Below are positions 5,804-47,703 of a stretch of DNA of 48,417 nucleotides, one piece after another. Position 1 is the stretch's first letter. Every line of letters begins with the position of its first letter. The notes below the pieces were generated by a model that was given only the letters and a program-made list of their open reading frames with translations, was not told the origin of the DNA and did no database searches. Origin of the DNA: Pseudomonadota bacterium (GTDB lineage: Bacteria; Bdellovibrionota; Bdellovibrionia; Bdellovibrionales; JACTMU01); contig JACTMU010000069.1 of the NCBI GenBank assembly GCA_014584465.1, positions 1 to 48,417 of the forward strand, written 5' to 3'. Both the position numbers and the translations under genes were made by a program.

Positions 5804-5889
5804 ATAGTTGATTTTAGAGAGAGATCAGGCCATTTTCCCTTTTTACGTGGATGTACTATAGAGATAGCCTTAACGTGTAGGATACGATT

Positions 5890-6069
5890 ATGCCTTGCCC
5901 CAAGAAGAAGACTTCTAGAATGAATCGTGGTTTTCGACGTGCCCATAACGCACTTACTCGACCCACTGTTGTTCATTGTGCCAATTGCAACGCCATCACC
6001 CGCCCTCATCGTGTATGCCCAACTTGCGGCTATTATAAGGGAAGGGAGATTGTCCTTCCTAAGAGTTAA
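5890..6069 (+). CDS. rpmF: 50S ribosomal protein L32
   Basis: 59 residues beginning MPCPKKKTSRMNRGFRRAHN, the standard L32 N-terminus. It ends with a zinc-ribbon form: CANC in the middle and CPTCG near the C-terminus, giving four cysteines. L32 is a component of the large ribosomal subunit. An in-frame stop follows at 6067-6069, eight bases before the fabH ATG. Most genomes with this order have plsX between rpmF and fabH; here there is no room for it. Confidence 0.97.
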   Translation: MPCPKKKTSRMNRGFRRAHNALTRPTVVHCANCNAITRPHRVCPTCGYYKGREIVLPKS

Positions 6070-6077
6070 CTTGGGTG

Positions 6078-7091: not shown

Positions 7092-7156
7092 GCTAAGGCC
7101 CTGGTCGTGTGACTCATGAGAAGGAGACAGGTCGTGCTTCGTAGAAGGAGTTGGGT

Positions 7157-8137: not shown

Positions 8138-8877
8138 GGCGACTGGAGAAGAGGCAAATTGTAGTTACCGGAGCCAGCCGTGGGATCGGAGCTGGCATTG
8201 CTCGTCGCTTGGCAGCAGAAGGGGCGCAAGTTGCCATCACCTACAGCTCCAATCGATCCAGCGCAGAGGCCGTGCTGGCCTCCCTAGAAGGCACCTCCCA
8301 CATGGTGGTTGAACTCAATGTGGCCGATGAAGAGTCCGTCAAACGTGCATTTGATGAGGTTTTAAGCCACTTTGGTGGGCTCAACGCTCTTGTCAACAAT
8401 GCGGGGATCACGCAGGATCAGCTTCTTCTTCGTATGAAGAGTGGGGATTTTGATCGAGTCATTCAGACCAATCTGCGTGGAGCATTTCTCTGCACGAAGG
8501 CTGCGATGAAGCCCTTACTGAAGAGTCCTGGCGGAGGCTCTGTGGTCAATATCACTAGCGTCATCGGACAGACCGGAAACGCTGGGCAATCCAACTACTC
8601 CGCAAGTAAGGCGGGGATTGAGGCTTTCAGCAAATCGATTGCGCTTGAGATGGGTTCTCGAGCCATTCGAGTCAACTGTGTGGCACCTGGATTCATTGTT
8701 ACGGAGATGACGGACCAACTCACTGAAGATCAAAAAGAGGCGATTTTACAAAAGGTTCCGCTTAGGACCCTTGGCCAGGTTGACGATGTTTCGGCGGCTG
8801 TTGCTTTTTTAGTAAGCGATGAGGCAAAGTACATCACTGGCCATACCCTAAATGTGAACGGTGGCTTGTACATGTAA
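8134..8877 (+). CDS. fabG: 3-oxoacyl-ACP reductase
   Basis: 247 residues, a short-chain dehydrogenase that reduces 3-oxoacyl-ACP with NADPH. It shows the nucleotide-binding motif TGASRGIG, NNAG near residue 88, catalytic Ser142 in NITSVIG, Tyr155 and Lys159 in YSASK, and the closing NVNGGLYM that is standard for FabG. The GTG start overlaps the end of fabD, with AAGGAT upstream. Confidence 0.95.
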   Translation: MRRLEKRQIVVTGASRGIGAGIARRLAAEGAQVAITYSSNRSSAEAVLASLEGTSHMVVELNVADEESVKRAFDEVLSHFGGLNALVNNAGITQDQLLLRMKSGDFDRVIQTNLRGAFLCTKAAMKPLLKSPGGGSVVNITSVIGQTGNAGQSNYSASKAGIEAFSKSIALEMGSRAIRVNCVAPGFIVTEMTDQLTEDQKEAILQKVPLRTLGQVDDVSAAVAFLVSDEAKYITGHTLNVNGGLYM

Positions 8878-8916
8878 TTTAAAGTGAAAAGTTGAACTTT
8901 TTATGGAGGCAATTGA

Positions 8917-9144
8917 ATGCAAAACAAAGTTAAAAACATTATCGTAGAGCAGCTGGGCGTAGACGCAGAGCGAGTGAAGGCAGAGGCATCGTTCATTGAT
9001 GATCTAGGTGCAGACAGCCTGGACATCGTAGAGCTTGTCATGGCTATGGAAGAGGAGTTTGACATCGAAATTCCTGATGAAGATGCAGAGAAGCTAAGAA
9101 CCGTTCAGGACGTCTACAACTACCTTGAAACAAAGGTGAAGTAA
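8917..9144 (+). CDS. acpP: Acyl carrier protein
   Basis: 75 acidic residues. Ser34 in the motif [10 protein letters not shown] carries the 4'-phosphopantetheine arm that holds the growing acyl chain. The flanking helix 2 sequence ([21 protein letters not shown]) is the usual partner-docking face. GGAGG stands 7 bases before the ATG, the best ribosome site in the operon, as expected for an abundant protein. Confidence 0.97.
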
Positions 9145-9151
9145 CCAAAGT

Positions 9152-10417
9152 ATGGGCAGCATCTTTCAAAGAAAACCTCGGGAGCAACGGCGCGTGGTCG
9201 TCACAGGGGTGGGGGCTATCACACCTCTTGGACTCAACTTGCAGACAAGTTGGGAGGGTGCAATCAACGGTAAGAGCGGGATTGCCCGAATCACTCAGTT
9301 TGATCCAACGGCCTTTACGGTGCAGATTGCAGGTGAGGTCAAAGGTTTTGAGATTGATCTCTACATCCCTAAAAAAGAGCAGAAGAAGATGGGGAGATTC
9401 ATCCATCTCTTTTTGGCCACCACTCAGATGGCCCTTAAGGATTCGGGATTGGACATAGGTTCTGCTTTGGGTGAACGGTCAGGAACCATTGTGGGTGTCG
9501 GAATGGGAGGCCTTCCTGACATTGAAGATCAGCATAAGGTCTATCTTGACCGAGGTCCAGGACGTCTGACTCCATTTTTTATTCCCATGGTGATCTCCAA
9601 CATGGCACCAGGCCATGCGGCGATTCTCCATGGAGTCAAAGGCCCGAACTACACGATCACTTCGGCCTGCGCCTCAGGAGCACACGCCATTGGCGAAGCC
9701 GCGGCCTACATTCGTAATGGCGTTTGTGATGTGATGATCACAGGCGGTACGGAGTCCGTTGTTTGCCCAACGGCAGTTGGGGGGTTTGCCGCAATGAAGG
9801 CCCTTTCCACACGCAATGATCAGCCTCAGATGGCGAGTCGTCCCTTTGATCGTGATCGAGATGGATTTGTACTGTCCGAAGGCTCCGCCACACTCATCTT
9901 GGAAGATTACGAACATGCCTCTCGCAGAGGCGCAACCATCTATGGAGAGGTTCGAGGGTATGGGATCTCATCAGACTCTCACCACATGACCTCTCCCCTT
10001 CCAGAGGGTGAAGGCGCTGCCAAAGCGATGCAGATGGCATTGATGGATGCGGAGGTCTCTCCGGAACAGGTTGGTTACGTCAATGCCCATGGCACGAGCA
10101 CTCCTGTGGGAGATGCTGCGGAAACCAAAGCCCTCCGCCGCATCTTTGGCTCACATGCAGATCAACTTTGGGTGAGCAGTTCAAAGAGCATGATCGGGCA
10201 CACTCTCGGCGCCGCTGGCGCCATTGAAAGCGCCTTTTGTCTTATGACACTCAAAACTGGGGTTGTTCATCCGACGATCAATTTGGAAAACCCTGGTGAT
10301 GGTTGTGATCTCGACTATGTGCCAGCTGTGGCTCGTGAAAAAGAGGTAAACCACATTCTTAACAACAGTTTTGGATTTGGTGGAACCAACGCTTCTCTCC
10401 TCTTTTCAAGAGTTTAA
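9152..10417 (+). CDS. fabF: Beta-ketoacyl-ACP synthase II
   Basis: 421 residues, the elongating condensing enzyme. The active-site Cys173 lies in TSACASGAHAIG, and the two catalytic histidines lie in NAHGTSTPVGD and GHTLGAAGA; the C-terminal NNSFGFGGTNASL loop is present. The first 12 residues (MGSIFQRKPREQ) are a short extension compared with many FabF proteins, and the ATG has no strong ribosome site; translation may couple to acpP, whose stop is 7 bases upstream. Confidence 0.96.
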   Translation: MGSIFQRKPREQRRVVVTGVGAITPLGLNLQTSWEGAINGKSGIARITQFDPTAFTVQIAGEVKGFEIDLYIPKKEQKKMGRFIHLFLATTQMALKDSGLDIGSALGERSGTIVGVGMGGLPDIEDQHKVYLDRGPGRLTPFFIPMVISNMAPGHAAILHGVKGPNYTITSACASGAHAIGEAAAYIRNGVCDVMITGGTESVVCPTAVGGFAAMKALSTRNDQPQMASRPFDRDRDGFVLSEGSATLILEDYEHASRRGATIYGEVRGYGISSDSHHMTSPLPEGEGAAKAMQMALMDAEVSPEQVGYVNAHGTSTPVGDAAETKALRRIFGSHADQLWVSSSKSMIGHTLGAAGAIESAFCLMTLKTGVVHPTINLENPGDGCDLDYVPAVAREKEVNHILNNSFGFGGTNASLLFSRV

Positions 10418-10488
10418 GACGCACACTTCATAACCCATTTCTCATTTCAGATCTGGGTTTCATAACTGGGTTTGTGGGGGGTTTGAAA

Positions 10489-10929
10489 ATGGGTGAAGTG
10501 ATTTACATTGCCTCTGATCACGCAGGATTTGAACTCAAACGAGACTTGATCAGCATATTTCCAGAGTTTCAGTGGAAGGATCTAGGCCCAATGAACTCAG
10601 ACTCCATTGATTATCCTGACATGGCCGATAGGGTCGCTCTCGAGGTTCAAAAGGGAGCCGGTCGTGGCATTCTTATTTGCGGTTCAGGACAAGGTATGGC
10701 CATTCGGGCCAATAAGTACCCGAACATACGCGCGGCCCTCTGCTGGAACGTGGAATCTGCAAGATTGGCTCGAAGTCACAATGATGCCAATCTGCTCTGT
10801 TTGGGAGCAAGGTTCTTATCCCCTGATGAGAGTCAAGAGGTTGTAAAGACCTTTCTTAAAACCGAGTTTGAAGGTGGTCGCCACCAAAAGAGAGTGGACA
10901 AACTGATAAAACCGATTAGGTCCCAATGA
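10489..10929 (+). CDS. rpiB: Ribose-5-phosphate isomerase B
   Basis: 146 residues. It interconverts ribose 5-phosphate and ribulose 5-phosphate. Typical RpiB features are the opening [11 protein letters not shown], a YPDMA stretch, the phosphate-binding [12 protein letters not shown] with the catalytic Cys just before it (ILICGSG), and the [13 protein letters not shown] segment. ATG 10489 follows a GGGGGG tract; an in-frame GTG at 10474 is less likely. The stop falls in the leader of glyA, so the two are probably co-transcribed. Confidence 0.93.
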
Positions 10930-10940
10930 GAGGAGAACTT

Positions 10941-12170
10941 ATGAGTCTATTGAAGAACGACCCTGAAATTGCAGAGATCATTGCAAAAGAGCTCGACCGG
11001 CAACGGTATGGACTTGAACTCATCGCCTCAGAAAACTACACCTCAAAAGAGGTCATGGAGGCCCAAGGCTCCATCCTCACCAACAAATACGCTGAAGGAT
11101 ATCCGGCCAAGAGATATTATGGAGGGTGCGAGTTTGTCGATCAAAGTGAACAACTCGCCATTGATCGAGCGAAAAAGCTCTTTGGTGCAGACCACTGCAA
11201 TGTGCAACCGCACTCGGGCTCGCAAGCCAATATGGCAGCCTACCTCGCTCTGGCGTCACCTGGAGATCGTCTCCTGGGCATGGATCTCTCTCACGGGGGA
11301 CACCTCACCCATGGTGCTTCCGTCAACTTCAGTGGTTCCCTCTTTCAAGCTTTCCACTACGGAATCGATCCCGAAACCCACAGAATCAATTATGAGACTT
11401 TGAGAAACAAGGCCAAAGAGGTGCGCCCCAAAATTCTGATTGCGGGCTTCAGTGCCTACCCCAGAGAACTTGATTATTCTAAACTTCGTTCCATCGCCGA
11501 TGAAGTCGAAGCTTTTCTTGTGATGGATATGGCCCACATTGCAGGACTCGTGGCCGGAGGTGTCGCTGCAAACCCAATCCCTCACTGTCACATCGTAACC
11601 ACAACCACACACAAAACATTACGAGGACCACGAGGCGGACTCATCTTCTGTAAGGAGGAGTTTGCAAAGAAGGTGAACTCAAAGATCTTTCCTGGAATTC
11701 AAGGTGGTCCACTCCAACATGTGATTGCGGCCAAAGCTGTGGCCCTGGGCGAAGCACTGAAGCCGGAGTTTAAGACCTACGCCCAGTCGGTTGTGACCAA
11801 CGCCAAACACTTAGGCAGTGCACTCCTTTCAGAGGGCTTTGAACTCGTCACAGGTGGCACGGACAACCACCTTCTTCTTCTGGATTTAACAAAGAGAGGG
11901 ATCACCGGCAAAGACGCCGAACATGCACTGGAACAAGCTGGCATAACGGCAAACAAGAACACGGTTCCCAATGAACAGCGAAGCCCCTTTGTCACAAGTG
12001 GCATTCGACTGGGCACTCCCGCACTTACCTCTCGTGGTATGGGAACCAAAGAGATGGAACTCATTGCAAAGTGGATTGGTGAAGTCCTAAGTGATTTTGA
12101 AAATGGATCAATTCAAAAGGAAGTAAGAAAAAGAGTTAAAGTACTTTGTGAAGAGTTTCCGATTTACTGA
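10941..12170 (+). CDS. glyA: Serine hydroxymethyltransferase
   Basis: 409 residues. A PLP enzyme that converts serine and tetrahydrofolate to glycine and 5,10-methylene-tetrahydrofolate. The PLP lysine is in [14 protein letters not shown]; the N-terminal [18 protein letters not shown] and [14 protein letters not shown] are hallmark sequences. ATG 10941 is chosen because AGGAG lies 6 bases upstream; the earlier ATG at 10926 overlaps rpiB and lacks a site. The rpiB-glyA pairing behind fabF is a known deltaproteobacterial and Bdellovibrio arrangement. Confidence 0.96.
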
Positions 12171-12184
12171 CCCTATGAAAGGAC

Positions 12185-12212
12185 TTGCCTCTTCATCATG
12201 TGAAGCTACAAT
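12185..12212 (+). promoter_or_regulatory. Possible promoter of the M23 lipoprotein gene
   Basis: TTGCCT (12185-12190), a 16-bp spacer and TACAAT (12207-12212) lie just before the ATG at 12227. The -10 matches five of six consensus bases. The leader would be only about 10 bases. Confidence 0.4.
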
Positions 12213-12226
12213 TATAGATAGCTTGC

Positions 12227-12742
12227 ATGTCTTATTTCATCCGTGGTCATCTCTCTATTTTTCTCCTTCAGATTGCACTTGCTGGCTGCAGTTCATCTCA
12301 AAAGATCGCTGATGATTCTGCAGAGACCACCCGTGTTCCCGCCCATGCCAATGTTCTTTCCATGATTTGGCCCCTCTCGCACATTGTAGAAAAGCGTCTC
12401 TCTCAAGGCTTTCGTCTTGGGCGTCGCCCCCATACAGGGATCGACCTCTCAGCCCCACGAGGCACGCCGATCTACGCAAGTCACGAGGGCTATGTGATTT
12501 ATGCAGGAAATGGCTACAACGGGTACGGTAAGTTGATCATCGTAGAACAGAGTGACACCTGGGCAACCTTCTATTCACATTGTGATCGCATCACGGTTCG
12601 AGAGGGCGATTATGTTCAACAGGGCGAAAAAATTGGAACCGTCGGACGCACCGGACGAGCCACTGGGGCTCATCTCCACTTTGAAGTGAGACGAAACCAA
12701 GTTCCCATCGATCCACTTCGTGTCCTTCCCGATCTTTTCTAG
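12227..12742 (+). CDS. M23-family peptidoglycan endopeptidase lipoprotein
   Basis: 171 residues. A lipoprotein signal peptide ends in the lipobox LAGC (Cys21). The M23 (LytM) domain has the zinc-binding residues His69 and Asp73 in HTGIDLS, His118 in YSH, and His149-x-His151 in HLHFEV, so it looks catalytically complete. M23 enzymes cut cross-links in peptidoglycan or, as in NlpD/EnvC, activate amidases; the intact zinc set favours a true hydrolase. No LysM repeat is seen. It is monocistronic and faces the glycosyltransferase gene tail to tail. Confidence 0.88.
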   Translation: MSYFIRGHLSIFLLQIALAGCSSSQKIADDSAETTRVPAHANVLSMIWPLSHIVEKRLSQGFRLGRRPHTGIDLSAPRGTPIYASHEGYVIYAGNGYNGYGKLIIVEQSDTWATFYSHCDRITVREGDYVQQGEKIGTVGRTGRATGAHLHFEVRRNQVPIDPLRVLPDLF

Positions 12743-28957: not shown

Positions 28958-29521
28958 CTACCTCTTCACCACCACGAAACGCCCGCTCAGACGTGCCGCC
29001 GGAGCCTCCTCTCCAATGAGGGAAAGATTCACCTGAAGATTCAGTGGCAACAGCCGATGCCCCCCTCGAAAGAAAGCTTCAATGTCTAAGGAGAGATCTC
29101 CATCCCACTCGGCTCGTGCCTCAAAGGGGCCACAAATGGGCCTCAAAAAATCGATCTCCCCACGCCCAAGAAGGACCTCACTTTCCACGCTCGCAATCTT
29201 AGATGCTGCTTCCCATCGATTCATTTCAACCAGCGCCCATCCGCACAGGGCCCCCAACGAAAAGATGCCCCCCCCAAATGCCACCTCAGCATGGTTCACA
29301 ACAGGCTCCCACGGAACCCTCAGGACCACTCTTTGGAGATCGGCAAAGTCAACACAAACCCCCATAAATCCCGCAAGGGGAATCTGAGCGGTAAGAATTC
29401 CTTCTACATGCTTTAAGGCCTCTTCTCTTTTACGGTGCATGCCACCCCTAGCCTTTCTAAAGATTTCATTGTAAAACCCATTGCGAACGGGAACAACAAC
29501 TATTGAGTGGTGGGCATTCAT
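28958..29521 (-). CDS. YiiD-C-type thioesterase (hotdog fold)
   Basis: 187 residues from ATG 29521. The segment IPLAGFMGVCVDFADLQRVVLRVPWEPVVNHAEVAFGGGIFSLGALCGWALV matches the YiiD C-terminal domain, a hotdog acyl-CoA or acyl-ACP thioesterase type (positions about 49-100). A second half to residue 187 completes the single hotdog unit. Substrate unknown. It heads an operon with the class IV aminotransferase and diverges from nnrS across only 39 bp, which must contain both promoters or leave one gene reliant on its neighbour's leader. Confidence 0.65.
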   Translation of the reverse strand: MNAHHSIVVVPVRNGFYNEIFRKARGGMHRKREEALKHVEGILTAQIPLAGFMGVCVDFADLQRVVLRVPWEPVVNHAEVAFGGGIFSLGALCGWALVEMNRWEAASKIASVESEVLLGRGEIDFLRPICGPFEARAEWDGDLSLDIEAFFRGGHRLLPLNLQVNLSLIGEEAPAARLSGRFVVVKR

Positions 29522-29560
29522 TTTCAACTCAGGTCTGAGATTCGAAATGGAAGGAGATTC

Positions 29561-30703
29561 ATGAACCACATTTTCTGGGAACTTGGTTTTAGACCCTTCT
29601 TCCTATTTGGTTCCCTTTGGGTGGTTCTTGCAGCTTCCCTCTGGCTCTCCTCACTCTTAGGCTTCTCCCATTTTGATTTTCTTTGGCACGGTCATGAGAT
29701 GATCTTTGGTTTTGGGGGTGCCATCTTGGCAGGTTTCCTATTGACCGCAACTCAAAACTGGACAGGCATTCGCGGCATCCACGGAGGCCAGCTCCAACTC
29801 ATTGTTCTGGTTTGGACACTGGGAAGGGTTGAGAGTCTCTTGGGTCTCGATTTTTTTGGCCTCCTCTTTCTTCCCCTTCTTATCTATCTTCTCATTCCCT
29901 ATCTTAAGCTTCCCTCTCAGAGAAAAAATTGGATCCTATTTGCACTCATTGTCATCCTGTGGCTGAGTGAGTTTCTCTACGCAACCCATTTGTGGACCTC
30001 CCATTCCGCAAGTCACCCACGAAAGGCTTTGGCCCTTGCAACCTACGTTTTCCTGACGCTTCTCACACTCATTGGGGGAAGAGTTCTCCCCTACTTCTCC
30101 CGTCAAGCTCTGACCGCATGGAAGGGGCTCTCGCTGAACTGGTTGGACCACCTCTGTGTGGTGCTCACACTTATTCTGGGCCTCCTCCTTTTTATACCTA
30201 ACTCTGATTTTCTCTTGGGATGGCTCGCTCTGGTCAATGCTTTTAGCCATATGGTACGTTGGCTTCTCTGGAGACCATGGAGCTCCTGGAGGGTCCCCAT
30301 CTTATGGATCCTCTATGTCGGATACCTCTGGATTCCTGTGGGCTTTGCGCTTCATGGGCTCTCCTTTTGGATCCCTACACTTTACTCTGCGGCCCTTCAC
30401 AGCTTCACCACGGGAGCCATTGGGATCTTCATCTACGGCATGATCACAAGAGTGACCTTCGGGCATACGGGACGCAAGATCAGTGCCCCTAAATTCATTG
30501 TCCTTCTCGGGTATCTTCCCATCACTTTGGCCGCCCTTCTTCGAGTCCTCTTACCTTTGGTGAACTCTTCTTACTATAGGATCGCTTTGGTCTCTTCTCT
30601 TCTTCTTTGGATCTTTGCTCATTTGGCATTTGTGATTGGCTATGGCCCCATACTCATTTCACCCTCATTGGATGGCAAGGCCCAGACCAACAACAGATCC
30701 TAA
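29561..30703 (+). CDS. nnrS: NnrS family heme/copper membrane protein
   Basis: 380 residues, about 12 membrane helices. NnrS proteins are induced with nitrite and NO reductases and protect cells under nitrosative stress. Family signs: N-terminal ELGFRPFFLFGS, WHGHEMIFGFGGAILAGFLLTATQNWTG, GGRVLPYFSRQA, and the C-terminal LHSFTTGAIGIFIYGMITRVTFGHTGR. Several His residues for heme and copper are kept. ATG 29561 has AAGGAG 5 bases upstream. It lies 4 kb from nirS, which supports one nitrogen-oxide stress neighbourhood. Confidence 0.92.
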   Translation: MNHIFWELGFRPFFLFGSLWVVLAASLWLSSLLGFSHFDFLWHGHEMIFGFGGAILAGFLLTATQNWTGIRGIHGGQLQLIVLVWTLGRVESLLGLDFFGLLFLPLLIYLLIPYLKLPSQRKNWILFALIVILWLSEFLYATHLWTSHSASHPRKALALATYVFLTLLTLIGGRVLPYFSRQALTAWKGLSLNWLDHLCVVLTLILGLLLFIPNSDFLLGWLALVNAFSHMVRWLLWRPWSSWRVPILWILYVGYLWIPVGFALHGLSFWIPTLYSAALHSFTTGAIGIFIYGMITRVTFGHTGRKISAPKFIVLLGYLPITLAALLRVLLPLVNSSYYRIALVSSLLLWIFAHLAFVIGYGPILISPSLDGKAQTNNRS

Positions 30704-34153: not shown

Positions 34154-34582
34154 TCACTCCTTTGCAAACTTACTTCGCATGTAGGCCACAATCTGCCAAA
34201 TCTGTTCATCTTTAAGATTGAAGTTGGTCCCCTCACCATAGGCATCCATGTCCGTCTTAGGGCTGCCATTCTTGATGATCCAAAATAGTTGACCATCCTT
34301 TCGCCCCTTAAGATAACCGGCCTTATTGAAGGCTGTGACGGGTGGATTTAAATCCTTTGCAGACTTACCAGCCCCATCTCCCTTTTCTCCATGACATTTT
34401 GCACACTTTTTCTTGTAAGTCTCTAGCCCTGCCTTTTCAGCCTCTTTCTTGCCTGCCAAAGGGTTGGTCATCGCCAAGAAATTCTCTGGTGCAGTGGGAA
34501 TCTCCCTTCCCACTGCCATTTGAGCTCCTAAGAGTAGCGCCGCTAGACTCAATGATGCTAAAACTTGCTCTTTTTTGAACAT
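34154..34582 (-). CDS. Periplasmic monoheme cytochrome c
   Basis: 142 residues. Signal peptide (to about residue 25) and one heme site C60-A-K-C63-H64. The downstream Met that would be the sixth ligand is in DMDAYGEG or IVAYMRSK. A small soluble electron carrier, probably the donor to the nitrite reductase encoded 20 bp upstream on the same strand. Confidence 0.88.
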   Translation of the reverse strand: MFKKEQVLASLSLAALLLGAQMAVGREIPTAPENFLAMTNPLAGKKEAEKAGLETYKKKCAKCHGEKGDGAGKSAKDLNPPVTAFNKAGYLKGRKDGQLFWIIKNGSPKTDMDAYGEGTNFNLKDEQIWQIVAYMRSKFAKE

Positions 34583-34602
34583 AATCCTTCACCTCTTAAG
34601 AT

Positions 34603-36222
34603 TTAGTAGATATCTCGAGTGGTATTGTAAACATTGAACTTTCCTGTCGGAGTCACCAATCGATCATCGACAATTCTGGTTTTCTCTTTTCCAGTCTTGT
34701 CATCCATCACAATGATCTCACCCTTCTTATCCCAAAGGGCAATCCAAACCTCATCGCCGGCCTTGTTGTACTCCATGTGAACAATTCGACCACGATCGGC
34801 AAGCTTGATGACTTTTGCAGGTGCATCAAGATTCTTTAGATCAAAGAGGCTCACACTTCGAGTGGCTTCAACATCTTTCGCCAAGGTGTGGTCAACCCAA
34901 AGATGGGAACTCTTTGGATGAGTCTTGATAAAGAGGCCACCATCTCCGCCAGTCTTAAGTGTTCTCACCACCTTCCAGGCATTCTTCTTGTGCTTACCGG
35001 TTTCATCCGTTCCGATGACCGACACTGCAGGCTCACCCAAATGGGATGTCGCATAGACTGGACCAAACTTAGGATCCATAAAATTCGCACCACGACCTGG
35101 ATGAGGCTTTACTGCCGTATCCACAATGCCCGCAAGCTTTTTCATCTTCGCATCTACAACCACCATCTTGTCACGCATATTGGCGGCCACAAGGAAATAG
35201 CGCTTGGTGATATCCCATCCACCGTCATGCAAGAAACGTTCGGACTCAATGGCGGTCGTTTTCAAGTTCTTGATGTCAGAGTAATCCACCAACAAGACCT
35301 GACCGGTCTCCTTCACATTGATGATCCATTCAGGGTCAAAGTGTGAAGCCACAATGGAAGCCACTCGTGGTTCAGGGTGATACTCGTTGGTGTCATAGGT
35401 GTAACCTCGAGTTCCAACGATCTTAAGGGGTTTCAAAGTGTGACCATCCAAAATCACGTAGGAAGGTGGCCAATAGTTTCCCACCACCGCATATTTATCG
35501 TTAAAGTTCCCTTTTTTTCCACTGTACTTGCTCGACTCGATGGATCTTGCATCAATCCCGGTCTTAACTTCCGCCACCGTTGCAGGAGGATCCATCCACA
35601 TATCGACCATCGTGGCTTTACCATCCCGCCCAATCGTGTAGAGATAGCGTTTGCTTGCAGAGTATCGAAGCGTGTGGACCGCAAATCCTGAATTGATGAT
35701 CGCCACAATCTCCTTAGTGTCACCATCAATGATTCCAATTTGGCCTGCATCACGCAATATGAGCGCAAAGAAATTGTCAATGTTGCGCTTATGGGCTGGT
35801 TTTTTGGGTCTCTGATCCTCTGGAACCAAGAGTTTCCAGCTGGCTTCGATGTCCTTCATGTTCCACTCGGGTGGTGCAACCGGCTCATTTTGAATGAACT
35901 TTGCAAGCATTGTGGATTCATCTTTAGACAGAACTCCAGTCGCCCCCCATCCGGGCATCCCTCCATCGGTCCCGTTAAAAATGATGTCTGCAAGCTTGTC
36001 GACGCTCTTTGTGCGGGTCTTATCGGGAGTCAAAGGTTTTCCTGTTGCCCCCTTCCTCAATGTTCCATGACATCCGGCACATCGGTCAAAGTAGACCCCT
36101 TTGGCCTTAGCAAAATCGCCTTCAGACATCTTGGGAACTGGTTGTAAATCATCCTCTGCACCACTTACCAATGGGGCAAGTGCCACAAACAATGCTGCAA
36201 TGATGGATAAGCCCTTTTTCAT
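34603..36222 (-). CDS. nirS: Cytochrome cd1 nitrite reductase
   Basis: 539 residues. Signal peptide, then a cytochrome c domain (heme motif C48-A-G-C51-H52), then the eight-bladed d1 propeller. The heme d1 axial His is in SGFAVHTLRYSA, and the two catalytic histidines are in EYHPEPRVASIVASH and RFLHDGGWD, followed by PHPGRGANFMDPKFGPV and ending TPTGKFNVYNT. It reduces nitrite to NO in the periplasm. NirN, a close relative, is the main alternative, but both active-site histidines favour NirS. ATG 36222 has AAGGAG upstream. It forms an operon with the small cytochrome c. Heme d1 genes (nirE, nirJ, nirF and others) are not in the window and must lie elsewhere. Confidence 0.93.
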   Translation of the reverse strand: MKKGLSIIAALFVALAPLVSGAEDDLQPVPKMSEGDFAKAKGVYFDRCAGCHGTLRKGATGKPLTPDKTRTKSVDKLADIIFNGTDGGMPGWGATGVLSKDESTMLAKFIQNEPVAPPEWNMKDIEASWKLLVPEDQRPKKPAHKRNIDNFFALILRDAGQIGIIDGDTKEIVAIINSGFAVHTLRYSASKRYLYTIGRDGKATMVDMWMDPPATVAEVKTGIDARSIESSKYSGKKGNFNDKYAVVGNYWPPSYVILDGHTLKPLKIVGTRGYTYDTNEYHPEPRVASIVASHFDPEWIINVKETGQVLLVDYSDIKNLKTTAIESERFLHDGGWDITKRYFLVAANMRDKMVVVDAKMKKLAGIVDTAVKPHPGRGANFMDPKFGPVYATSHLGEPAVSVIGTDETGKHKKNAWKVVRTLKTGGDGGLFIKTHPKSSHLWVDHTLAKDVEATRSVSLFDLKNLDAPAKVIKLADRGRIVHMEYNKAGDEVWIALWDKKGEIIVMDDKTGKEKTRIVDDRLVTPTGKFNVYNTTRDIY

Positions 36223-36641
36223 AATTAACTCCTTTATAAAAACAAGGGTCACTAAACAAGGTTGTCTCTTAAATGATGCTTCCTATTCTATTGTATTTGC
36301 AACTCCGCAAGTAGAAAGCAATTTCACTGCATTGACAAACCATTTTTTGCTTCGCTTTTTCTCGAAGAGCCTCCGCGTTGGGGTCACCTTGAGCATACAA
36401 ACATCCACCTTTTTCCTAGATGATCAATGATTGAGCAACAAACGAGACAATGTGCCTCAAGGCTTTGCAAAGCGAGCCGACAATGGGACAACTTTAGGCA
36501 TTGCTCAAAATGAATAGGAGTCATTGTCTTGCTCTTTTTGAATCTGTTGCCTATGATGGGAAAAACTTTAATACTAAAGACAAAGATCAACGTCCGTGCG
36601 GTGACGTCGATGATGTTAAAGCAATTCTTGAGGGAGCACCT
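36223..36641. promoter_or_regulatory. Divergent control region of nirS and the Fe-S/NrfD genes
   Basis: 419 bp between two start codons. A TTGACA occurs at 36332-36337 (plus strand) without a good -10, and TACAAT reads on the minus strand near 36291-36296. I looked for FNR/DNR boxes (TTGAT-N4-ATCAA) and found only half-matches, such as near 36421-36435. Regulation is therefore not established from sequence. Confidence 0.3.
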
Positions 36642-37697
36642 ATGTCTGATTCCGATCGTTTGAAACCTTGCGCATGTCAAACAGAACTCAACCGTCAACC
36701 CGAGACAGGTTCCAACCAGTTTGGTTGCTGTAAAAAGGCAAATGGCCAATCCCATCCTGACTTGAAACAAGGGTCAACACGTCGCGGTATCTTGAAAGCA
36801 GGGCTCGCCTCGCTTGCAGGATTTGCCGCACTGATGGGGAAGGATCGCCTTCATAGAGCTTTTGCACAAGATGAAACTTCAACCTCATCAGATTCAGAGA
36901 CTCTCCCCACCCTGTCGGTGAACGGCCAACTTGTGGACCCCTTCACCGGTAAACCTGTTGAAAAAAACCCTGAATACCATAACCGTAGCGGACACAGCGC
37001 CGTTCGAGATGGAATTGCCAATCGAAAGTGGGTGATGGTCATTGATTTGGCTGAGTGTGACGGCTGTGAAAAGTGCACGGTTGCTTGCCAAAAATACCAC
37101 GACACCCCGCCCGAACGTCAGTGGATTCGCATTTTTAAAATGAGAGGGGCGCCTGGCAAAAACGCCTATTGGTTCCCCAAGCCCTGCTTTCACTGCGATG
37201 ATCCACCTTGTACGCGTGTCTGCCCCGTGGATGCAACCTTTAAACGCCAAGATGGAATCGTCTTGATCGACAATGAACGCTGCATTGGATGCAGGTTTTG
37301 CATGGCTGCTTGCCCCTACTCCACTCGATATTTCAACTGGGGACGCATTGAAGGCAATGATGACTTGAGCGGCTACTCTCCAGAGACGAGTGTCCCACGC
37401 CGAGTTGGAACTGTGGAGAAGTGCGATTTTTGCCCGGATATGCTCCGGCAAGGAACACTTCCGCACTGTGTGACCGCCTGTAAGATGGGGGCCATTCTTT
37501 TTGGAGATCAAAATGAAGATGCCGTCTCTGATTACAAGGGACGCACATTTCGCCTTTCAACTCTCTTAAAAGAGAAGAGCGGTTATCGCTATCTTGAAGA
37601 GTTGGGGACGAAACCACGGGTCTACTATCTTCCATCTAAAAATCCGACCTACGATCCTCCTGTGATCGACCCAGATGCAGCTCCACATGATGGCTGA
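36642..37697 (+). CDS. Tat-exported four-cluster ferredoxin-like subunit (NrfC/PsrB/DmsB type)
   Basis: 351 residues. Tat signal STRRGILKAG at 46-55 followed by a hydrophobic stretch. Ferredoxin part: CDGCEKCTVAC, CFHCDDPPCTRVCP, CIGCRFCMAACP and CDFCP...CVTAC, four [4Fe-4S] motifs, the full set of DmsB/NrfC-type subunits. It probably sits on the periplasmic face and passes electrons from the NrfD-like protein encoded next. ATG 36642 has GAGGGAG upstream. The segment before the Tat motif has four Cys (10, 12, 29, 30), which is odd for a signal region and is noted separately. No molybdopterin catalytic subunit is encoded, so the pair is likely a quinol dehydrogenase. Confidence 0.88.
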   Translation: MSDSDRLKPCACQTELNRQPETGSNQFGCCKKANGQSHPDLKQGSTRRGILKAGLASLAGFAALMGKDRLHRAFAQDETSTSSDSETLPTLSVNGQLVDPFTGKPVEKNPEYHNRSGHSAVRDGIANRKWVMVIDLAECDGCEKCTVACQKYHDTPPERQWIRIFKMRGAPGKNAYWFPKPCFHCDDPPCTRVCPVDATFKRQDGIVLIDNERCIGCRFCMAACPYSTRYFNWGRIEGNDDLSGYSPETSVPRRVGTVEKCDFCPDMLRQGTLPHCVTACKMGAILFGDQNEDAVSDYKGRTFRLSTLLKEKSGYRYLEELGTKPRVYYLPSKNPTYDPPVIDPDAAPHDG

Positions 37698-37840
37698 GTT
37701 CAATGGCTGAGATCGACGACTGAGGTCTAGGTCACTTTTTGTCCAATGAATGATTCTGAGAGAATGAATGGTCGCAAACCGAGTTGTACAGTGAAACATG
37801 AGGCTAGAAAACGAGCCACTTTAGATTAAGGAGTTAACAG

Positions 37841-39847
37841 ATGAGTCAAGTCACAGCAAAAGTTGAAAACTTCGCACTGGAGGATATGAATCGGACCTTT
37901 TCGACCTCGTCCATAAAGTTTAGAATCTGGATTGGAACTCTTCTGGCCATCATTGGGACCGCCTTTTGTGCCTACATCTATCAATTGGTTCAAGGACTTC
38001 AAACCACGGGAATGCGCAATTATGTCTCATGGGGAGTCTACATGACCAACTTTGTTTTTTTTATTGGAATCAGTCATGCAGGAACCCTAATTTCGGCAAT
38101 CTTACGAGTGACCAACGCTCCTTGGCGCCGTCCCATCACGAGAATGGCAGAGGCCATTACGCTCTTTGCACTCATGATTGGTGCCCCAATGGTCATCATT
38201 GACATGGGTCGACCTGATCGAGTTCTCAATGTCTTTATGCATGGACGACTGAACTCTCCAATCTTGTGGGACATCTTTTCCATTGCCACTTACATCAGTG
38301 GTTCTCTTCTCTATCTTTACGTTGCTTTGATCCCCGATCTTGCTCTTTTTCGAGACCATCTGGCAAAACCTTGGCAAAAGAAGCTTTTCACCCTCTTGGC
38401 CATTGGTTACAAGGGGGGAAAGGAACAGGAGAAGGCACTGAACAAAGCCCTTGGTGCTATTTGCATCGTCATTATCCCGGTTGCGATTTCGGTGCACACA
38501 GTGGTCTCCTGGATCTTCAGCATGACCCTCAGGCCTGGTTGGCACAGCACCATCTTTGGACCCTACTTCGTCGTAGGTGCGATCTTCTCTGGTACGGCTG
38601 CCATCGTAACTGCAATGATCGTCTTTCGCCTTGCCTATCGATTGCAACGATATCTCACCATGGTCCACTTTAAGGCTCTGGCAAAGCTGCTCATTGCACT
38701 TAATGCCCTCTACATCTACTTCACGGTGAGTGAGTATCTTACGATTTGGTATGGCCGCCATGAGATTGACCATCGCCTCCTCGATGTTCTTGCGGGACAT
38801 AGCCCTTACGCGCCACTTTGGTGGTTCATGTGGGTCTTTGGTCTCTTTTTACCTCTGCTTTTGACGATTTGGTTTGTTATACAAAAAGAGAGTCGCCATG
38901 CCCTTACAGTGATCTTCGTGGCGACCATCTTGATCAATATAGGAATGTATTTGAAACGATATCTCATCATCGTTCCTACGATGATGACCCCCTACATTCC
39001 GGCCGAAGCCGCTGACATTCACATCAGTTATGTTCCAACGTTCATTGAGTGGATCATCACTGCAGGTGGATTTGCGATGTTTCTGCTTCTTTACACACTT
39101 TTTTCGAAGATCTTTCCGATCATTTCTGTTGCTGAAGTTTTGGAGGGAATTCATGAAGTCGGTGCTGAAAAGGTTGGAGTCTACATTGGAGATCGCTCTC
39201 CCAACCATCCGCCGCCAGGTCGTCCCGGCATGGCCTCGATTGTGCTGATTGCCCTCCTTCTTTTTAATCTTTTACCCAATCGCATCTACGCGCAAACTTC
39301 AGACCACGAGCACCATCACAGCGAGGAGGCCAGCGATGAATCTTCAGGGGCTGAAGACACCGATGAAGCTGTGTCAAAAGATGCAGTCAAACTTGACCTC
39401 AGCCTCAATAAAGAGATCTCCGAAGAGGATGATCTCCCCTACCTTGTGGCAAAGATTCATCACTCCAAAGTTCCTGAAGGTCTCTCTGTCGCATTTACAA
39501 TACCCCGACTCTTTGGAACTTTAACCCTTGGAGAGGTGGAAGTTGATGATTCCGGTCTTGCATCACTTAAGTTTCCTGAAGACCTTCCTGGTGAGGCAAA
39601 TACAGGTGAGCTTCAAGTCACTGCAAAAATTGTAAAGTCCAAAAGCTTTGTGGGATCTGCCACAGCTCTTGTTCCTGGAGGAACTCGGTTGGAACCTATT
39701 TCCGACCCCTTCCCCAGGGCCATCTGGTCACCTAAAACCGACTGGTACCTTTTGCTCACAATTCCATTCTTGATTGGATGTGTCTGGACCGTCTACATCT
39801 ACGCGCTTGTGCATCTTCGTAGGATTTCCAAACTCGGTGGGAAATAA
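37841..39847 (+). CDS. NrfD/PsrC-like quinol-oxidising membrane subunit with C-terminal fusion
   Basis: 668 residues. Residues 25-440 have about nine membrane helices and resemble NrfD/ActC: SWGVYMTNFVFFIGISHAGTLISAILR, DMGRPDRVLNVFMHGRLNSPILWD, RPGWHSTIFGPYFVVGAIFSG. The family binds menaquinol near the periplasm. After about 460, a hydrophobic stretch (SIVLIALLLFNLLPNRIYAQTS) looks like a signal peptide, then a His/acid-rich linker (SDHEHHHSEEASDES), then a beta-rich domain of about 120 residues and a final membrane helix. This tail is not part of standard NrfD. It is 143 bp downstream of the Fe-S gene, and likely the membrane anchor of that complex. Confidence 0.85.
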   Translation: MSQVTAKVENFALEDMNRTFSTSSIKFRIWIGTLLAIIGTAFCAYIYQLVQGLQTTGMRNYVSWGVYMTNFVFFIGISHAGTLISAILRVTNAPWRRPITRMAEAITLFALMIGAPMVIIDMGRPDRVLNVFMHGRLNSPILWDIFSIATYISGSLLYLYVALIPDLALFRDHLAKPWQKKLFTLLAIGYKGGKEQEKALNKALGAICIVIIPVAISVHTVVSWIFSMTLRPGWHSTIFGPYFVVGAIFSGTAAIVTAMIVFRLAYRLQRYLTMVHFKALAKLLIALNALYIYFTVSEYLTIWYGRHEIDHRLLDVLAGHSPYAPLWWFMWVFGLFLPLLLTIWFVIQKESRHALTVIFVATILINIGMYLKRYLIIVPTMMTPYIPAEAADIHISYVPTFIEWIITAGGFAMFLLLYTLFSKIFPIISVAEVLEGIHEVGAEKVGVYIGDRSPNHPPPGRPGMASIVLIALLLFNLLPNRIYAQTSDHEHHHSEEASDESSGAEDTDEAVSKDAVKLDLSLNKEISEEDDLPYLVAKIHHSKVPEGLSVAFTIPRLFGTLTLGEVEVDDSGLASLKFPEDLPGEANTGELQVTAKIVKSKSFVGSATALVPGGTRLEPISDPFPRAIWSPKTDWYLLLTIPFLIGCVWTVYIYALVHLRRISKLGGK

Positions 39848-39857
39848 GCACTTTGGG

Positions 39858-40304
39858 TTAGGCCGATTTTTTGTAACTGATGGGTGGAGAGAAATTGGCG
39901 ATCTCGTCCGTCTCAAATCGCTTTTGACAGTCGTTGAGAGAATTTTTGACAATCCCTTTGCGAAAAGCATTGTCGATCTTGATCCACTCCTCTTCAAGTT
40001 CAGGAGATAGGCCCACACTGCGAATCGCCTCTCGCAAGAGTCGCGTACGCAGATCAAAGAGTTCGTTCGTAATGAACATGTGCCGGTGAGCTGGAATGGG
40101 CAGTTTGCCACAGTATCGATTGGCCCCTCCCATGGCCTTCATCATAAAGTCACTTTGTTGATTCTCGATGGTTTCTTGAGGGACTTCCTGAAAGTAGAGT
40201 CCGATCCATGGATCCTTGTAGACCAAATCGTAGAAGTGCTTATGAACGCGCTCCAAAGTCTCTCGCCCACCAATTCTCTCAAAAAGCGTTGAATTCTGAC
40301 CCAT
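39858..40304 (-). CDS. Truncated hemoglobin (group 1 type)
   Basis: 148 residues. The globin pattern is LFERIGGRETLERVHKHFYDLV, DPWIGLYF, then the E-helix region QQSDFMMKAMGG and the proximal His in IPAHRHMFITNEL. Truncated globins bind O2 and can oxidise NO to nitrate, so location next to the nirS block suits NO detoxification. It ends 10 bp from the NrfD-like gene on the other strand. About 25 extra residues at the C-terminus. Confidence 0.82.
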   Translation of the reverse strand: MGQNSTLFERIGGRETLERVHKHFYDLVYKDPWIGLYFQEVPQETIENQQSDFMMKAMGGANRYCGKLPIPAHRHMFITNELFDLRTRLLREAIRSVGLSPELEEEWIKIDNAFRKGIVKNSLNDCQKRFETDEIANFSPPISYKKSA

Positions 40305-40404
40305 GATCTCTTCTATCGGACTTTCATCGGGTCCACTTAAGTGATCAAAGATGGGCCATCCTTAAGATTTCATCAAAACGTCTGAACACATTCGAAAATG
40401 CGTC

Positions 40405-41247
40405 TCATTTTGATCCGCGCTTGAGTCTCTCGTCGTTTAAGCCATCCCAAAAGGCCGCCACTCCGTCCAACATCTCCTTTCCTGATGAGATGAAGAGGTT
40501 GCGATTGAACTCATGCTCTCCAAAAAAGAGGGCTTCAAGTTCTTCTTGAGTGTGCTGAGCATGTTGAGCTTCGACCTTGTCATGCCAAGTGAAAAATCCA
40601 AGGGGCAGTTCAGGCTTTTCACTTTTCTTAAACACTTTGAAACCACGAACCAATTGCCCCCAAAAACCTGCGGCCGCCCAATTCTCAACCGCAAAACTTG
40701 CCCCCGCACCAATTGAAAAATCGGCATTCCCATAGAGTCGCTCAAGCTCATCACAAAAGAAAAGAGTCTTGGTCGAACCATGGGCTCTCTTCCCCATATC
40801 TGAGAACGAGAGACCGATCCGCTCCCCCATGAGCAACAGCCACTCAAAATGTGCTGCACGAAACTTGAAAGTGCCACCGTCCACACTGCCGTTTGTGTTC
40901 ACCAAATCTGGATCCCCCTCATCCTCACTCTGAGCAGCTCGTTTGAGCCTGGACTCCTCACTCTCTCTTTGCTGAGGGCGAAAAATGACACCAATCTCAT
41001 TGGCCAAAATCTCTTTTGCGGCACGCATCTCCTGAAGATCTACGGCATTGAGCATCTTCTTTAACTGTGCAATGAGAAAGAGGTTGGAGAATACCGAAAA
41101 CTGGACGACAAAATAGCGCACGTCCTCCAAATTCAATTCTCCCTTTTCAAACCACCGGCAATACTCATTGCTCGTGATCACTCGATGTGACATGAGCTCT
41201 CGGTCGATTCTTGCCTTAAACTCTGTAAATTCACTTTGTGTGGCCAT
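40405..41247 (-). CDS. Heme-oxygenase-fold (possible diiron) protein
   Basis: 280 residues from ATG 41247, mainly helical. Segments resemble heme-oxygenase-like diiron oxidases and PqqC/TenA relatives: EILANEIGVIF (Glu), RAAHFEWLLLMGER (His/Glu), and a closing WHDKVEAQHAQHTQEELEAL with Asp/Glu/His spaced as metal ligands. I cannot name the family or substrate. It lies behind the globin gene on the same strand with about 100 bp between, and may be co-transcribed. Confidence 0.5.
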   Translation of the reverse strand: MATQSEFTEFKARIDRELMSHRVITSNEYCRWFEKGELNLEDVRYFVVQFSVFSNLFLIAQLKKMLNAVDLQEMRAAKEILANEIGVIFRPQQRESEESRLKRAAQSEDEGDPDLVNTNGSVDGGTFKFRAAHFEWLLLMGERIGLSFSDMGKRAHGSTKTLFFCDELERLYGNADFSIGAGASFAVENWAAAGFWGQLVRGFKVFKKSEKPELPLGFFTWHDKVEAQHAQHTQEELEALFFGEHEFNRNLFISSGKEMLDGVAAFWDGLNDERLKRGSK

Positions 41248-41618: not shown

Positions 41619-42839
41619 ATGAGTTTTCGAAGCACCTGTTTTTCTAAGTGCATTGCACAATCACTCTTAATCATGTCGGCTCCACTTGTAGCGATGGCCT
41701 CACAGGCGAAGAGCACTCCACTGTACCAGCGAACGGATCGCTCTGAGCTGCGCTGGACTGAAGGAGTCAAATACCCTGAGGCGGATGAACTTGGTCGAGA
41801 ACCCGTTTTTAATTTTTCTCTCAGTGCTCCTTTGAATGCACTTGGCGGTTTCAATGAACTCCTCCCCTATTTGTTACGATCTCCCGATCAACAAGATGCT
41901 GGAAGTTGTCTCTATATGGCCAACACCGGAGTTGCTGAGTGGTGGCTTGCACGCCTTTCTCCTGAGAAGTCGCGAGATCCTAATGGCCCTTTGGATTTGA
42001 GTGAACGCTATTTGATGAATGTTGCTGGAATCGAGGAGGCCGAAAATGGGGTCCAAAATTGGAGGACCGACACGATCTACCTCTTCAACTCTTTTGGAAA
42101 TAGGGGAATTCTGAATTCTACCTATCCATTTGCCATGGGCTGGTACAAAGAGGACTCCGAGGGACAACTGGTCCAATCCCATCAATTGGAGCAGGGGGCA
42201 CAGTACGGTGCGACCTACAGCTGGATCAATGAGCTCTCGACAATTCAGGGTGGAGAGGTCTCCCTCCCCTCGTTCCAAAGAGATGTTCTCTTTAAGGATC
42301 CAGAATCCAATCAGTGGAACGTTGGAATCGTATCTAACGATCTCGTTTCAGAAGTAAAGAGGCTTCTCAATGAGAGAAAGGCTCCGATTCAGGTGATCTA
42401 CAACCACTTCGGTTATTGGCATGCAAACCTCATCTTAGGTTATGACGACGGAACCAAGCTGGAAGATTGCCCCATGGTTCAACGTTCCAGGCGTTATTTC
42501 CCCAGTGAAATTGAGCGCCTCAGGAGACTTCTTGCACGAACGGATGATCCTCAGAAGCAGGAGACTTTGCGAAAGCGCATCGAAAAATTTAGTAAAACAG
42601 TGAGAGATCTTGAGGGGGCCTATGAATCTCAGGGTGGTTGTCGCAATGAGGGAGTCTTTTACGTAAGAGATTCCATCTACGCCGATAAGGATGGTCCGAT
42701 CTATGACTACGACCGAAGCAGTGAGCAGGAGAACTCCCCTTATGCCAAGAGAGTCGTTCTTCTTGAGTACGATTGGCTCGTCTACCTTGCCAACCATGTG
42801 ACTCAAATCTATGATGATCACTCCACCAACTTCAAGTGA
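41619..42839 (+). CDS. Exported papain-like cysteine protease
   Basis: 406 residues from ATG 41619 with GGGGAGG upstream and a signal peptide ending near AMASQA. The papain motif QQDAGSCLYMAN gives the nucleophile Cys97 and HFGYWHANLILGYDDG gives the His (about 268); this is the C1 (QxxxSC...H) pattern. An Asn/Gln-bearing segment follows. A Lys/Arg/Glu-rich helix (residues about 295-330) is an insertion. The 3' end overlaps the aldehyde dehydrogenase pseudogene by about 30 bp on the other strand, so its last ten codons may be recruited sequence. Role: probably extracellular or periplasmic proteolysis. Confidence 0.72.
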   Translation: MSFRSTCFSKCIAQSLLIMSAPLVAMASQAKSTPLYQRTDRSELRWTEGVKYPEADELGREPVFNFSLSAPLNALGGFNELLPYLLRSPDQQDAGSCLYMANTGVAEWWLARLSPEKSRDPNGPLDLSERYLMNVAGIEEAENGVQNWRTDTIYLFNSFGNRGILNSTYPFAMGWYKEDSEGQLVQSHQLEQGAQYGATYSWINELSTIQGGEVSLPSFQRDVLFKDPESNQWNVGIVSNDLVSEVKRLLNERKAPIQVIYNHFGYWHANLILGYDDGTKLEDCPMVQRSRRYFPSEIERLRRLLARTDDPQKQETLRKRIEKFSKTVRDLEGAYESQGGCRNEGVFYVRDSIYADKDGPIYDYDRSSEQENSPYAKRVVLLEYDWLVYLANHVTQIYDDHSTNFK

Positions 42840-43800
42840 TTCATGAGCCCTTTTCATGTGATTGATCGATTGGGTAAAGACTCCAGCTTGGAGTCCAAAG
42901 CGAGAATCGTTGACCCTGCGGACCGCCTCATGCCATGAAGTTGCACTTTCTAATACCAGCACCGGACCAAAGACCTCCTCACAAACCACTTTCATAGATG
43001 GATGGGTGTTTGTGAGGAGAATTGGACCCAAGATGTTGTGCTCAGGATTGTTGTCTTTTCCGCCCATGACCATTTGAGCACCACCGCCCTGGGCCTCACA
43101 CACCCAGTTCCACACCCGATCCCTATGGTGCCGATCAATGAGATGGCCAAGAATTGTGGCACGATCTCGCGGATCCCCCACGTGCAACTGTTCAATCTCT
43201 TTGGTCAACATGTTTTGAAATTCATCAAAAGCTCCTCCAACAACATAAACCCTTTGGGTTGAAATGCATATTTGACCAGAATAGAGGTAGGCTCCAAGTG
43301 CCACCCAACCGCCTCACTTCCTGTAAAGGAGAGTGTGGCCAATCGATCATCGCAGACAAGTTGTTCCGCCATTTGAGAATCACAAATCACCACGTTGGCA
43401 GATCCAGAAGGGTAGTTGGCCTCTGCAATGAGTTCGGCCAAAAGAAGCGCGCTGAGCGGTGCATGGGGTGAGGGCTTTACGAGGCCACCTTGCCCTCACC
43501 AATTCCGTCGTCCACAGGAACCACCTCACCAGAAAACCGAAGAGATTCTGCGCTGGCTGCCTTGAGGACCCCAAGAGCACGGGAGACCTCAGCCTCGGCA
43601 AACGCCACAGGCTTCCCCGCCTCCTGCACAATCAAATCCGCAAATCTCTTTTGCTCCCGTTCCACAAGGGCATAGAGCTTTTCAAGATGGTCCCTCCTCT
43701 TTCCGGCACTCCAGACACGAAGCTCTTCAAACGCACGTTGAGCTGGGGTCACTGCGAGCTCCAGATCCTCGAGAGATGCAAGAGAGATGGTTTTGATCAC
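42807..43800 (-). pseudogene. Aldehyde dehydrogenase pseudogene
   Basis: Recognisable NAD(P)-dependent aldehyde dehydrogenase pieces in the right order but in different frames. 43477-43800 encodes the N-terminal part (AFEELRVWSAGKRRDHLEKL, EAGKPVAFAEAEVSRA). 43300-43480 encodes KPSPHAPLSALLLAELI and LSFTGSEAVGWH. 42807-43304 encodes ALGAYLYSGQICIS (catalytic Cys) to EEVFGPVLVL and KRAHESLEVGGVIIID. About 40 codons are lost at each of two internal junctions, including the ELGG region with the general base, and the C-terminal end is absent where the papain-like gene begins its tail. It cannot make an active enzyme. Confidence 0.85.
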
Positions 43801-46686: not shown

Positions 46687-47703
46687 ATGAAAAAGAGTCT
46701 GTCACTACTGCTCATCAGCGTGCTTGTCAGTCTGCTCGTCAACACCCCTTGGACTCTCACAGTTTTGCAAGCCGCAACGGGCAGTGAGCCCATCTCTCCA
46801 GTCCAACAGATGGTGAAGATCAACGCTAAAAAGGCGGAGCTCGGAAAGAGACTCTATTTTGACCCTCGCCTCTCCAAATCGGGCTTCATTTCGTGCAACA
46901 GTTGCCACAACTTGAGCCTTGGTGGAACCGACAACATCGCAACCTCGATTGGGCACAAGTGGCAGCAGGGCCCCATCAATGCTCCGACTGTCTTGAATTC
47001 AAGCTACAATATAGCCCAGTTCTGGAATGGTCGCGCCAAAGACCTCAAGGAACAAGCTGGTGGCCCCATTGCCAACCCAAAAGAGATGGCTTCCACTCAT
47101 GAACTGGCGCTGGAGGTCCTCAAGAGCATTCCTCAATATCGAAAGGAGTTTGCCCAAGTTTACGGCTCAGAAGAGATTACGATCGATCGCGCCACTGGGG
47201 CCATTGCGGAGTTTGAAAATACGCTCATCACGCCCAACTCCCGATTTGATCAATGGCTCAAGGGAAACAAAAAGGCGATCAGTGCCGAAGAGCTAGCAGG
47301 GTACAACCTCTTCAAATCGAGCGGCTGCGTCGGCTGCCATAATGGGGTTGCCGTTGGTGGAGGATCTTTTCAAAAATTGGGCGTTTTGAAACCCTACTCC
47401 ACTCAGAATCCGGCTCAGGGTCGCTTTGAAGTAACTCAAAACGAAGCTGATAAGATGGTTTTCAAGGTTCCAACGTTGCGTAACATTGAACTCACCTACC
47501 CCTACTTTCATGATGGAGAGGTAAAAACATTGAAAGATGCCGTCTCGTTGATGGGACAAATTCAACTTGGAAAAGAGTTCAGTGAATCGGAAAAGAGCCA
47601 ACTGGTGGCCTTTTTGAAGACATTGACCGGAGATCAACCCTCGTTCCCTCTGCCGATCCTCCCACCATCCAATGAGAAGACCCCGCAGCCGGAACCCTTT
47701 TGA
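46687..47703 (+). CDS. Di-heme cytochrome c peroxidase
   Basis: 338 residues. Signal peptide (to about residue 30) and two heme motifs: C70-N-S-C73-H74 (high-potential or peroxidatic side) and C214-V-G-C217-H218. Conserved segments are LGKRLYFDPRLSKSGFISCNSCH, WNGRAKDLKEQAGGPIANPKEM and VPTLRNIELTYPYFHDG. It reduces H2O2 in the periplasm with electrons from small cytochromes. MauG is the paralogous alternative but its context genes are absent. AAGGAG precedes the ATG by about 10 bases. Confidence 0.92.
   Translation: MKKSLSLLLISVLVSLLVNTPWTLTVLQAATGSEPISPVQQMVKINAKKAELGKRLYFDPRLSKSGFISCNSCHNLSLGGTDNIATSIGHKWQQGPINAPTVLNSSYNIAQFWNGRAKDLKEQAGGPIANPKEMASTHELALEVLKSIPQYRKEFAQVYGSEEITIDRATGAIAEFENTLITPNSRFDQWLKGNKKAISAEELAGYNLFKSSGCVGCHNGVAVGGGSFQKLGVLKPYSTQNPAQGRFEVTQNEADKMVFKVPTLRNIELTYPYFHDGEVKTLKDAVSLMGQIQLGKEFSESEKSQLVAFLKTLTGDQPSFPLPILPPSNEKTPQPEPF

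Follow-up and report, generated by a model that had tools for sequence, protein, structure and literature searches.

The window analysed here, a 48,417-nucleotide stretch of DNA, is one contig (C41) of the 120-contig draft genome G000 (3.75 Mb, 99.67% complete) of an uncultured member of the Bdellovibrionota. It carries nirS and the gene of a small cytochrome c, transcribed divergently from genes for an iron-sulfur (Fe-S) protein exported by the twin-arginine (Tat) route and for an NrfD-type membrane protein. We consider it fairly probable that these genes specify a dedicated quinol:nitrite electron-transfer unit that forms nitric oxide (NO), with electrons passing from quinol through NrfD, the Fe-S protein and the cytochrome c to NirS. 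A sequence-only reading had placed the genes in this divergent arrangement, and profile matches confirm it. The features are as follows.

34154..34582, minus strand: monohaem class I cytochrome c, 142 amino acids (Cytochrome_CBB3, E = 3e-13)
34603..36222, minus strand: nirS, cytochrome cd1 nitrite reductase (Pfam Cytochrom_D1, E = 1e-134)
36223..36641, no strand: divergent intergenic region of 419 bp from nirS to the Fe-S gene (start near 36642)
36642..37697, plus strand: predicted Tat-exported periplasmic ferredoxin-type protein with four [4Fe-4S] clusters, DsrO/NrfC/PsrB type (NCBIfam DsrO, E = 7e-57, slightly under the cut-off)
37841..39190, plus strand: NrfD/ActC-type quinol dehydrogenase membrane subunit, residues about 1-450 (Pfam NrfD, E = 2.6e-35)
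39191..39847, plus strand: C-terminal extension of the NrfD reading frame, with a hydrophobic segment, an immunoglobulin-like (Ig-like) domain and a C-terminal transmembrane segment (homologue in genome G213)

Conservation of the linkage

A nirS gene was found in nine of 369 genomes of the phylum. The closest is that of G213, a genome (85% complete) from the same order but another family, whose NirS is 82% identical to that of the window. There a single strand carries, in order, nirS, the cytochrome c gene, SCO, PCuAC, the Fe-S gene, nrfD and a gene for a small Ig-like membrane protein, with gaps of 11-16 bp, or overlaps, at the majority of the junctions. Identities to the window are 62% for the cytochrome c, 69% for the Fe-S protein and 75% for NrfD. 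Because the linkage of nirS and the cytochrome gene to the Fe-S/NrfD pair recurs as one operon in G213, it exceeds chance. No molybdoenzyme gene lies beside the pair, either in the G213 operon or within the flanks of the window; for the window, the sequence-only reading had held the same.

For nirS relatives, the scan of the genome collection covered the 80 best among 531. When 87 other nirS loci were examined, only four had a detectable NrfD homologue in their flanks, in two of them as an immediate neighbour; the arrangement is thus a rare one. Such rarity might suggest that nirS and its cytochrome gene came to lie beside an unrelated divergent operon by accident, but this is contradicted by G213, a member of another family of the order, where a single operon unites all four genes, and we regard it as barely credible. 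The G213 operon is one of the four cases. Another is a deltaproteobacterial metagenome-assembled genome (MAG; locus L049, 1-3250), where an NrfD gene that belongs to another subfamily and is truncated at the end of the contig stands in a row with genes for a small cytochrome c and NirS, possibly an independent second linkage. The third (L138, 1-372, genome G088) is an ActC-type NrfD gene fragment less than 10 kb from a full nirF-E-D-L-G-H-J-S-N cluster (nir genes 3599-12694) and norCBQD. The last, from Rokubacteria (L022), was rejected as a second nirS/NrfD case because its NrfD is part of a molybdoenzyme cluster some 7-8 kb away. In 396 sampled genomes of Nitrospirota, the NrfD contexts were only molybdoenzyme or alternative complex III (ACIII) ones. 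A literature search for nirS combined with NrfD found no relevant paper in the library searched.

NirS and its cytochrome c

NirS aligns end to end with the cytochromes cd1 of Pseudomonas aeruginosa and Paracoccus, and its phmmer match is 6.9e-191 to P. aeruginosa NirS (1bl9/1nir) versus 2e-34 to NirN. It keeps the CAGCH haem c motif (CxxCH), Met89, the proximal His183 and the catalytic His332 and His374. With all haem d1 active-site histidines present, the protein is, as judged from its sequence, a genuine NirS. The cytochrome c is its probable electron donor: the gene lies downstream of nirS in G213, and in a Thermodesulfovibrionales MAG (L015) the gene immediately after nirS encodes a cytochrome that is 42% identical. 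FNR/DNR boxes, looked for with the divergent nirS/Fe-S promoter in mind, showed no enrichment in the window (49 found, 40 expected).

The Fe-S protein, NrfD and the Ig-like extension

The Fe-S reading frame as called runs from 36501 to 37697 on the plus strand, but translation probably begins at the ATG near 36642, because the G213 protein opens with the same MSD-type N-terminus. The protein matches PsrB (2vpw_B, E = 5e-30) and its 16 ligand cysteines fall into four cluster motifs (186/189/192/196, 229/232/237/241, 261/264/267/271 and 308/311/323/327). It bears a twin-arginine motif, which in the G213 homologue is the canonical RRQFLK.

The NrfD reading frame (37841-39847, plus strand) encodes 668 amino acids. 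For its NrfD part, the best match among solved structures is ActC of ACIII (6btm_C, E = 2e-67) and the best in NCBIfam is DsrP. Most of the quinol-site residues are retained: Asp121, Ser139 and Asp144 occupy the positions of ActC His139, Ser164 and Asp169 in the first helix bundle. A second Fe-S/NrfD pair is encoded elsewhere in the same cell (contig C116; L124, 6158-12902), adjoining a cytochrome with 14 CxxCH motifs and further multihaem proteins.

The C-terminal extension, which the sequence-only reading had missed, is 47% identical to the product of the separate Ig-like membrane-protein gene directly behind nrfD in G213, and the window NrfD reaches its length because a counterpart of that gene is fused on. 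No Pfam or NCBIfam family matches the extension itself; the sole signal is a weak Big_1 match in the G213 homologue (E = 5e-5). Hydropathy peaks at residues 464-482 and 639-657, and a low-confidence AlphaFold model (two-sequence input, pLDDT 43) has strands at 517-612. Since both termini of ActC are cytoplasmic, the added segment at 464-482 and the final transmembrane segment at 639-657 would leave the Ig-like domain on the periplasmic side of the membrane, and it could tether the cytochrome or NirS there. In G213 the start codon of the Ig-like gene comes after the nrfD stop and in another frame, so the fusion requires a one-base change, which may be real or an assembly error. Bearing on this, aldehyde dehydrogenase pieces in different frames occur at 42435-43800 (minus strand) of the window, and are a frameshifted pseudogene or the product of assembly indels.

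Electron supply to NirS

The proposed route follows from the known function of each family. The ActC-like NrfD would oxidize menaquinol or ubiquinol at the periplasmic face; for NrfD-like subunits other than ActF, a quinone or quinol site facing the periplasm has been predicted (PMC8076601). Electrons would then enter the four-cluster Fe-S protein and pass by way of the small cytochrome c to NirS, which would turn nitrite into NO in the periplasm. The membrane-anchored Ig-like domain probably serves as a docking site for the periplasmic partners. This docking role is inferred, and so are the order and direction in which electrons flow. An extended form of the proposal, in which NrfD, the Fe-S protein, the Ig-like anchor, the cytochrome and NirS make up one membrane-bound complex, NrfD translocates ions and the NirS step conserves energy, would define a new type of oxidoreductase; we think it rather unlikely.

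NirS is usually described as fed by the bc1 complex via soluble cytochromes. The Rieske family (PF00355) had no match in G000, G213 or three other nirS-bearing genomes of the order, although related and control genomes gave matches, and the only cytochrome b seen was a cytochrome b/ferredoxin protein beside a putative eNOR (below). The lack of a Rieske match makes it very probable that bc1 is missing, a conclusion strongly supported for G000 (99.7% complete) and more weakly for G213 (85%).

Both genomes have complete ACIII operons (contig C14 of G000, contig C7 of G213), which the sequence-only reading had also overlooked, and ACIII is cited as the replacement of bc1 in some denitrifiers (PMC9270275). 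The absence of bc1 alone therefore does not force the NrfD route. ACIII might instead be the main quinol:cytochrome c reductase, serving NirS through the small cytochrome c as well as eNOR and the aa3 oxidase, with the Fe-S/NrfD pair an accessory or conditional donor. In keeping with this, other nirS-bearing members of the order have an ActC-type NrfD and no such pair beside nirS. But why G213 should then retain Fe-S and NrfD genes in one operon with nirS and the cytochrome gene is left unexplained, and we hold this arrangement to be unlikely. The bc1-independent quinol route of the sequence-only reading thus stands in part: the pair belongs with nirS and its cytochrome, most quinol-site residues are kept and no Rieske protein was found, but a complete ACIII is also present and the route itself we infer.

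Several points weigh against a dedicated NrfD route. The full ACIII of G000 could reduce the cytochrome c; ActC Asp253 is not kept in the window NrfD, which has Ile225 there; only two genomes, G000 and G213, are known to have the module; the two gene pairs of the window are divergent and form no single operon; and in G213 the two copper chaperones, SCO and PCuAC, stand between the operon halves, which leaves room for a copper enzyme in the system. This last point, together with the transcription of the pair away from nirS in the window, would fit a different periplasmic acceptor for the Fe-S/NrfD/Ig-like proteins, such as an SCO/PCuAC-matured copper enzyme or an NO-detoxifying partner, with nirS merely co-regulated. 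Neither cluster has a further oxidoreductase gene, however, and NirS and the cytochrome are the sole terminal acceptors common to both, which makes another acceptor quite improbable.

Haem d1 and the fate of nitric oxide

The haem d1 pathway is complete in G000: contig C106 carries nirE, nirC, nirF and nirN, and C107 carries nirJ together with four genes of the nirDLGH type. In G213 nirF, nirN and nirJ were not detected, perhaps because that genome is incomplete. Directly behind nirN on C106 are genes for a CuA-like subunit II and then a haem-copper subunit I, which reads GHSSQQ versus GHPEVY in the cell's own aa3 oxidase: Gln replaces the cross-linked Tyr of oxidases. Such a replacement is a mark of eNOR (PMC8756737), and by this residue the enzyme is classed as an eNOR-type NO reductase. 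The nir genes run into the eNOR operon (L009, 14777-19890; L010, 22-4597), which includes SCO and a fused cytochrome b/ferredoxin protein. The same eNOR-SCO-cytochrome b set also occurs in G213 (L177), where it is on its own, and in genome G273 (L137), where it adjoins nirS.

The sequence-only reading had allowed for NO as an end product because no NO reductase was in view. This is now unlikely, since the genome has the eNOR beside nirF and nirN and, in addition, a NorC/NorB-like pair (C52). With a NarG-sized molybdoenzyme on C100, the organism plausibly goes from nitrate to N2O.

Origin of the module

In the NrfD tree the window and G213 proteins form a clade with 100/100 support, clearly apart from the ActC of both cells' own ACIII and sister to NrfDs of molybdoenzyme complexes from Rokubacteria, Methylomirabilota and Nitrospirota. 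In the NirS tree they group with the Thermodesulfovibrionales sequence (71% identity), while other Bdellovibrionota NirS sit among gammaproteobacterial sequences. This split points to a separate acquisition of the window and G213 nirS. As the Thermodesulfovibrionales locus has nirS and the cytochrome gene and no Fe-S/NrfD pair, nirS-cytochrome c seems to be the more ancient unit, and the quinol dehydrogenase would have joined it later.

Neighbouring genes

Two genes lie beyond nrfD.

39858-40304, minus strand: truncated globin, group 1 (confirmed as real)
40405-41247, minus strand: CADD/haem-oxygenase-like protein, 280 amino acids (weak CADD match, TIGR04305, E = 0.0013; no Pfam match)

The sequence-only reading had counted both as parts of the module, handling NO or haem. 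We reject this: neither is encoded in the G213 operon, and the diiron-like protein has no counterpart anywhere in that genome. The latter has 15 relatives in the phylum (51-60% identity) and none in other nirS-bearing genomes. E84, H133, E188, H222, E226 and H229, an E/H/E/H/E/H diiron ligand pattern, are conserved in the 15 relatives. The CADD type is defined by its fold and by an E/H, E, H-x3-D/E-x2-H ligand pattern; a single-sequence AlphaFold model of the protein is too poor to show a fold (pLDDT 35). The protein probably belongs to another pathway, as a haem-oxygenase-like diiron protein of CADD type. Because several relatives adjoin genes that read, by eye, as 4-hydroxyphenylpyruvate dioxygenase or homogentisate 1,2-dioxygenase, a so far unrecognized role near tyrosine degradation is suggested.

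Elsewhere in the window, about 4 kb from the nirS cluster, is a gene for an NnrS family membrane protein (29507-30703, plus strand; Pfam E = 6e-90), a family associated with NO stress in other bacteria. A dihaem cytochrome c peroxidase of MauG/CcpA-like type is encoded at 46687-47703 (plus strand); homologues occur near nirS in L031 and, in two copies, in L049.

Comparison with known systems

NirT/NapC-type tetrahaem quinol dehydrogenases encoded next to nirS, as in Pseudomonas stutzeri, have been proposed to give NirS a bc1-independent quinol route. The same is proposed here, but NirT, being a tetrahaem cytochrome, has no relation to Fe-S/NrfD proteins. The nearest NrfD relatives (41-50% identity) are in CISM/DsrOP-type pairs of Rokubacteria, Methylomirabilota and Nitrospirota, which have similar four-cluster Fe-S proteins; those pairs adjoin a molybdoenzyme subunit and multihaem cytochromes, whereas the window module has none.

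ACIII (ActABCDEF) resembles the module in its quinol:cytochrome c chemistry and monohaem cytochrome c, in its ActC, to which the window NrfD is closest, and in the C-terminal Fe-S half of ActB, which the Fe-S protein is like. It differs in having the pentahaem ActA, the molybdopterin-like half of ActB, ActD and ActF, and the true ACIII of the cell is encoded separately on C14. A 2023 study described a denitrifier without bc1, b6f or ACIII and could only postulate that its NO and N2O reductases are served by some unknown bypass (PMC10390337). For the supply of NirS in denitrifiers lacking bc1, the Fe-S/NrfD unit in a nirS operon is a testable candidate.

The closest parallel in function is NrfABCD of Escherichia coli, in which nitrite reduction runs through NrfC and NrfD (PMC8076601). 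Both systems have a Tat-exported Fe-S protein and an NrfD without a molybdoenzyme, and in both quinol would supply electrons for a nitrite reductase and for periplasmic c-type cytochromes. In E. coli, however, the reductase is the pentahaem NrfA, which forms ammonium, and the carrier is pentahaem; here they are NirS, forming NO, and a monohaem cytochrome, and neither the window module nor the G213 operon encodes a multihaem protein such as NrfA or NrfB. The NrfD of the module, moreover, resembles ActC and comes with an Ig-like extension or partner. The genes described here add relatives of Bdellovibrio to the bacteria with nirS-type denitrification, which in this case leads from nitrite to N2O at least, and if the proposed route is correct, NrfD-type respiration extends from ammonification to denitrification.

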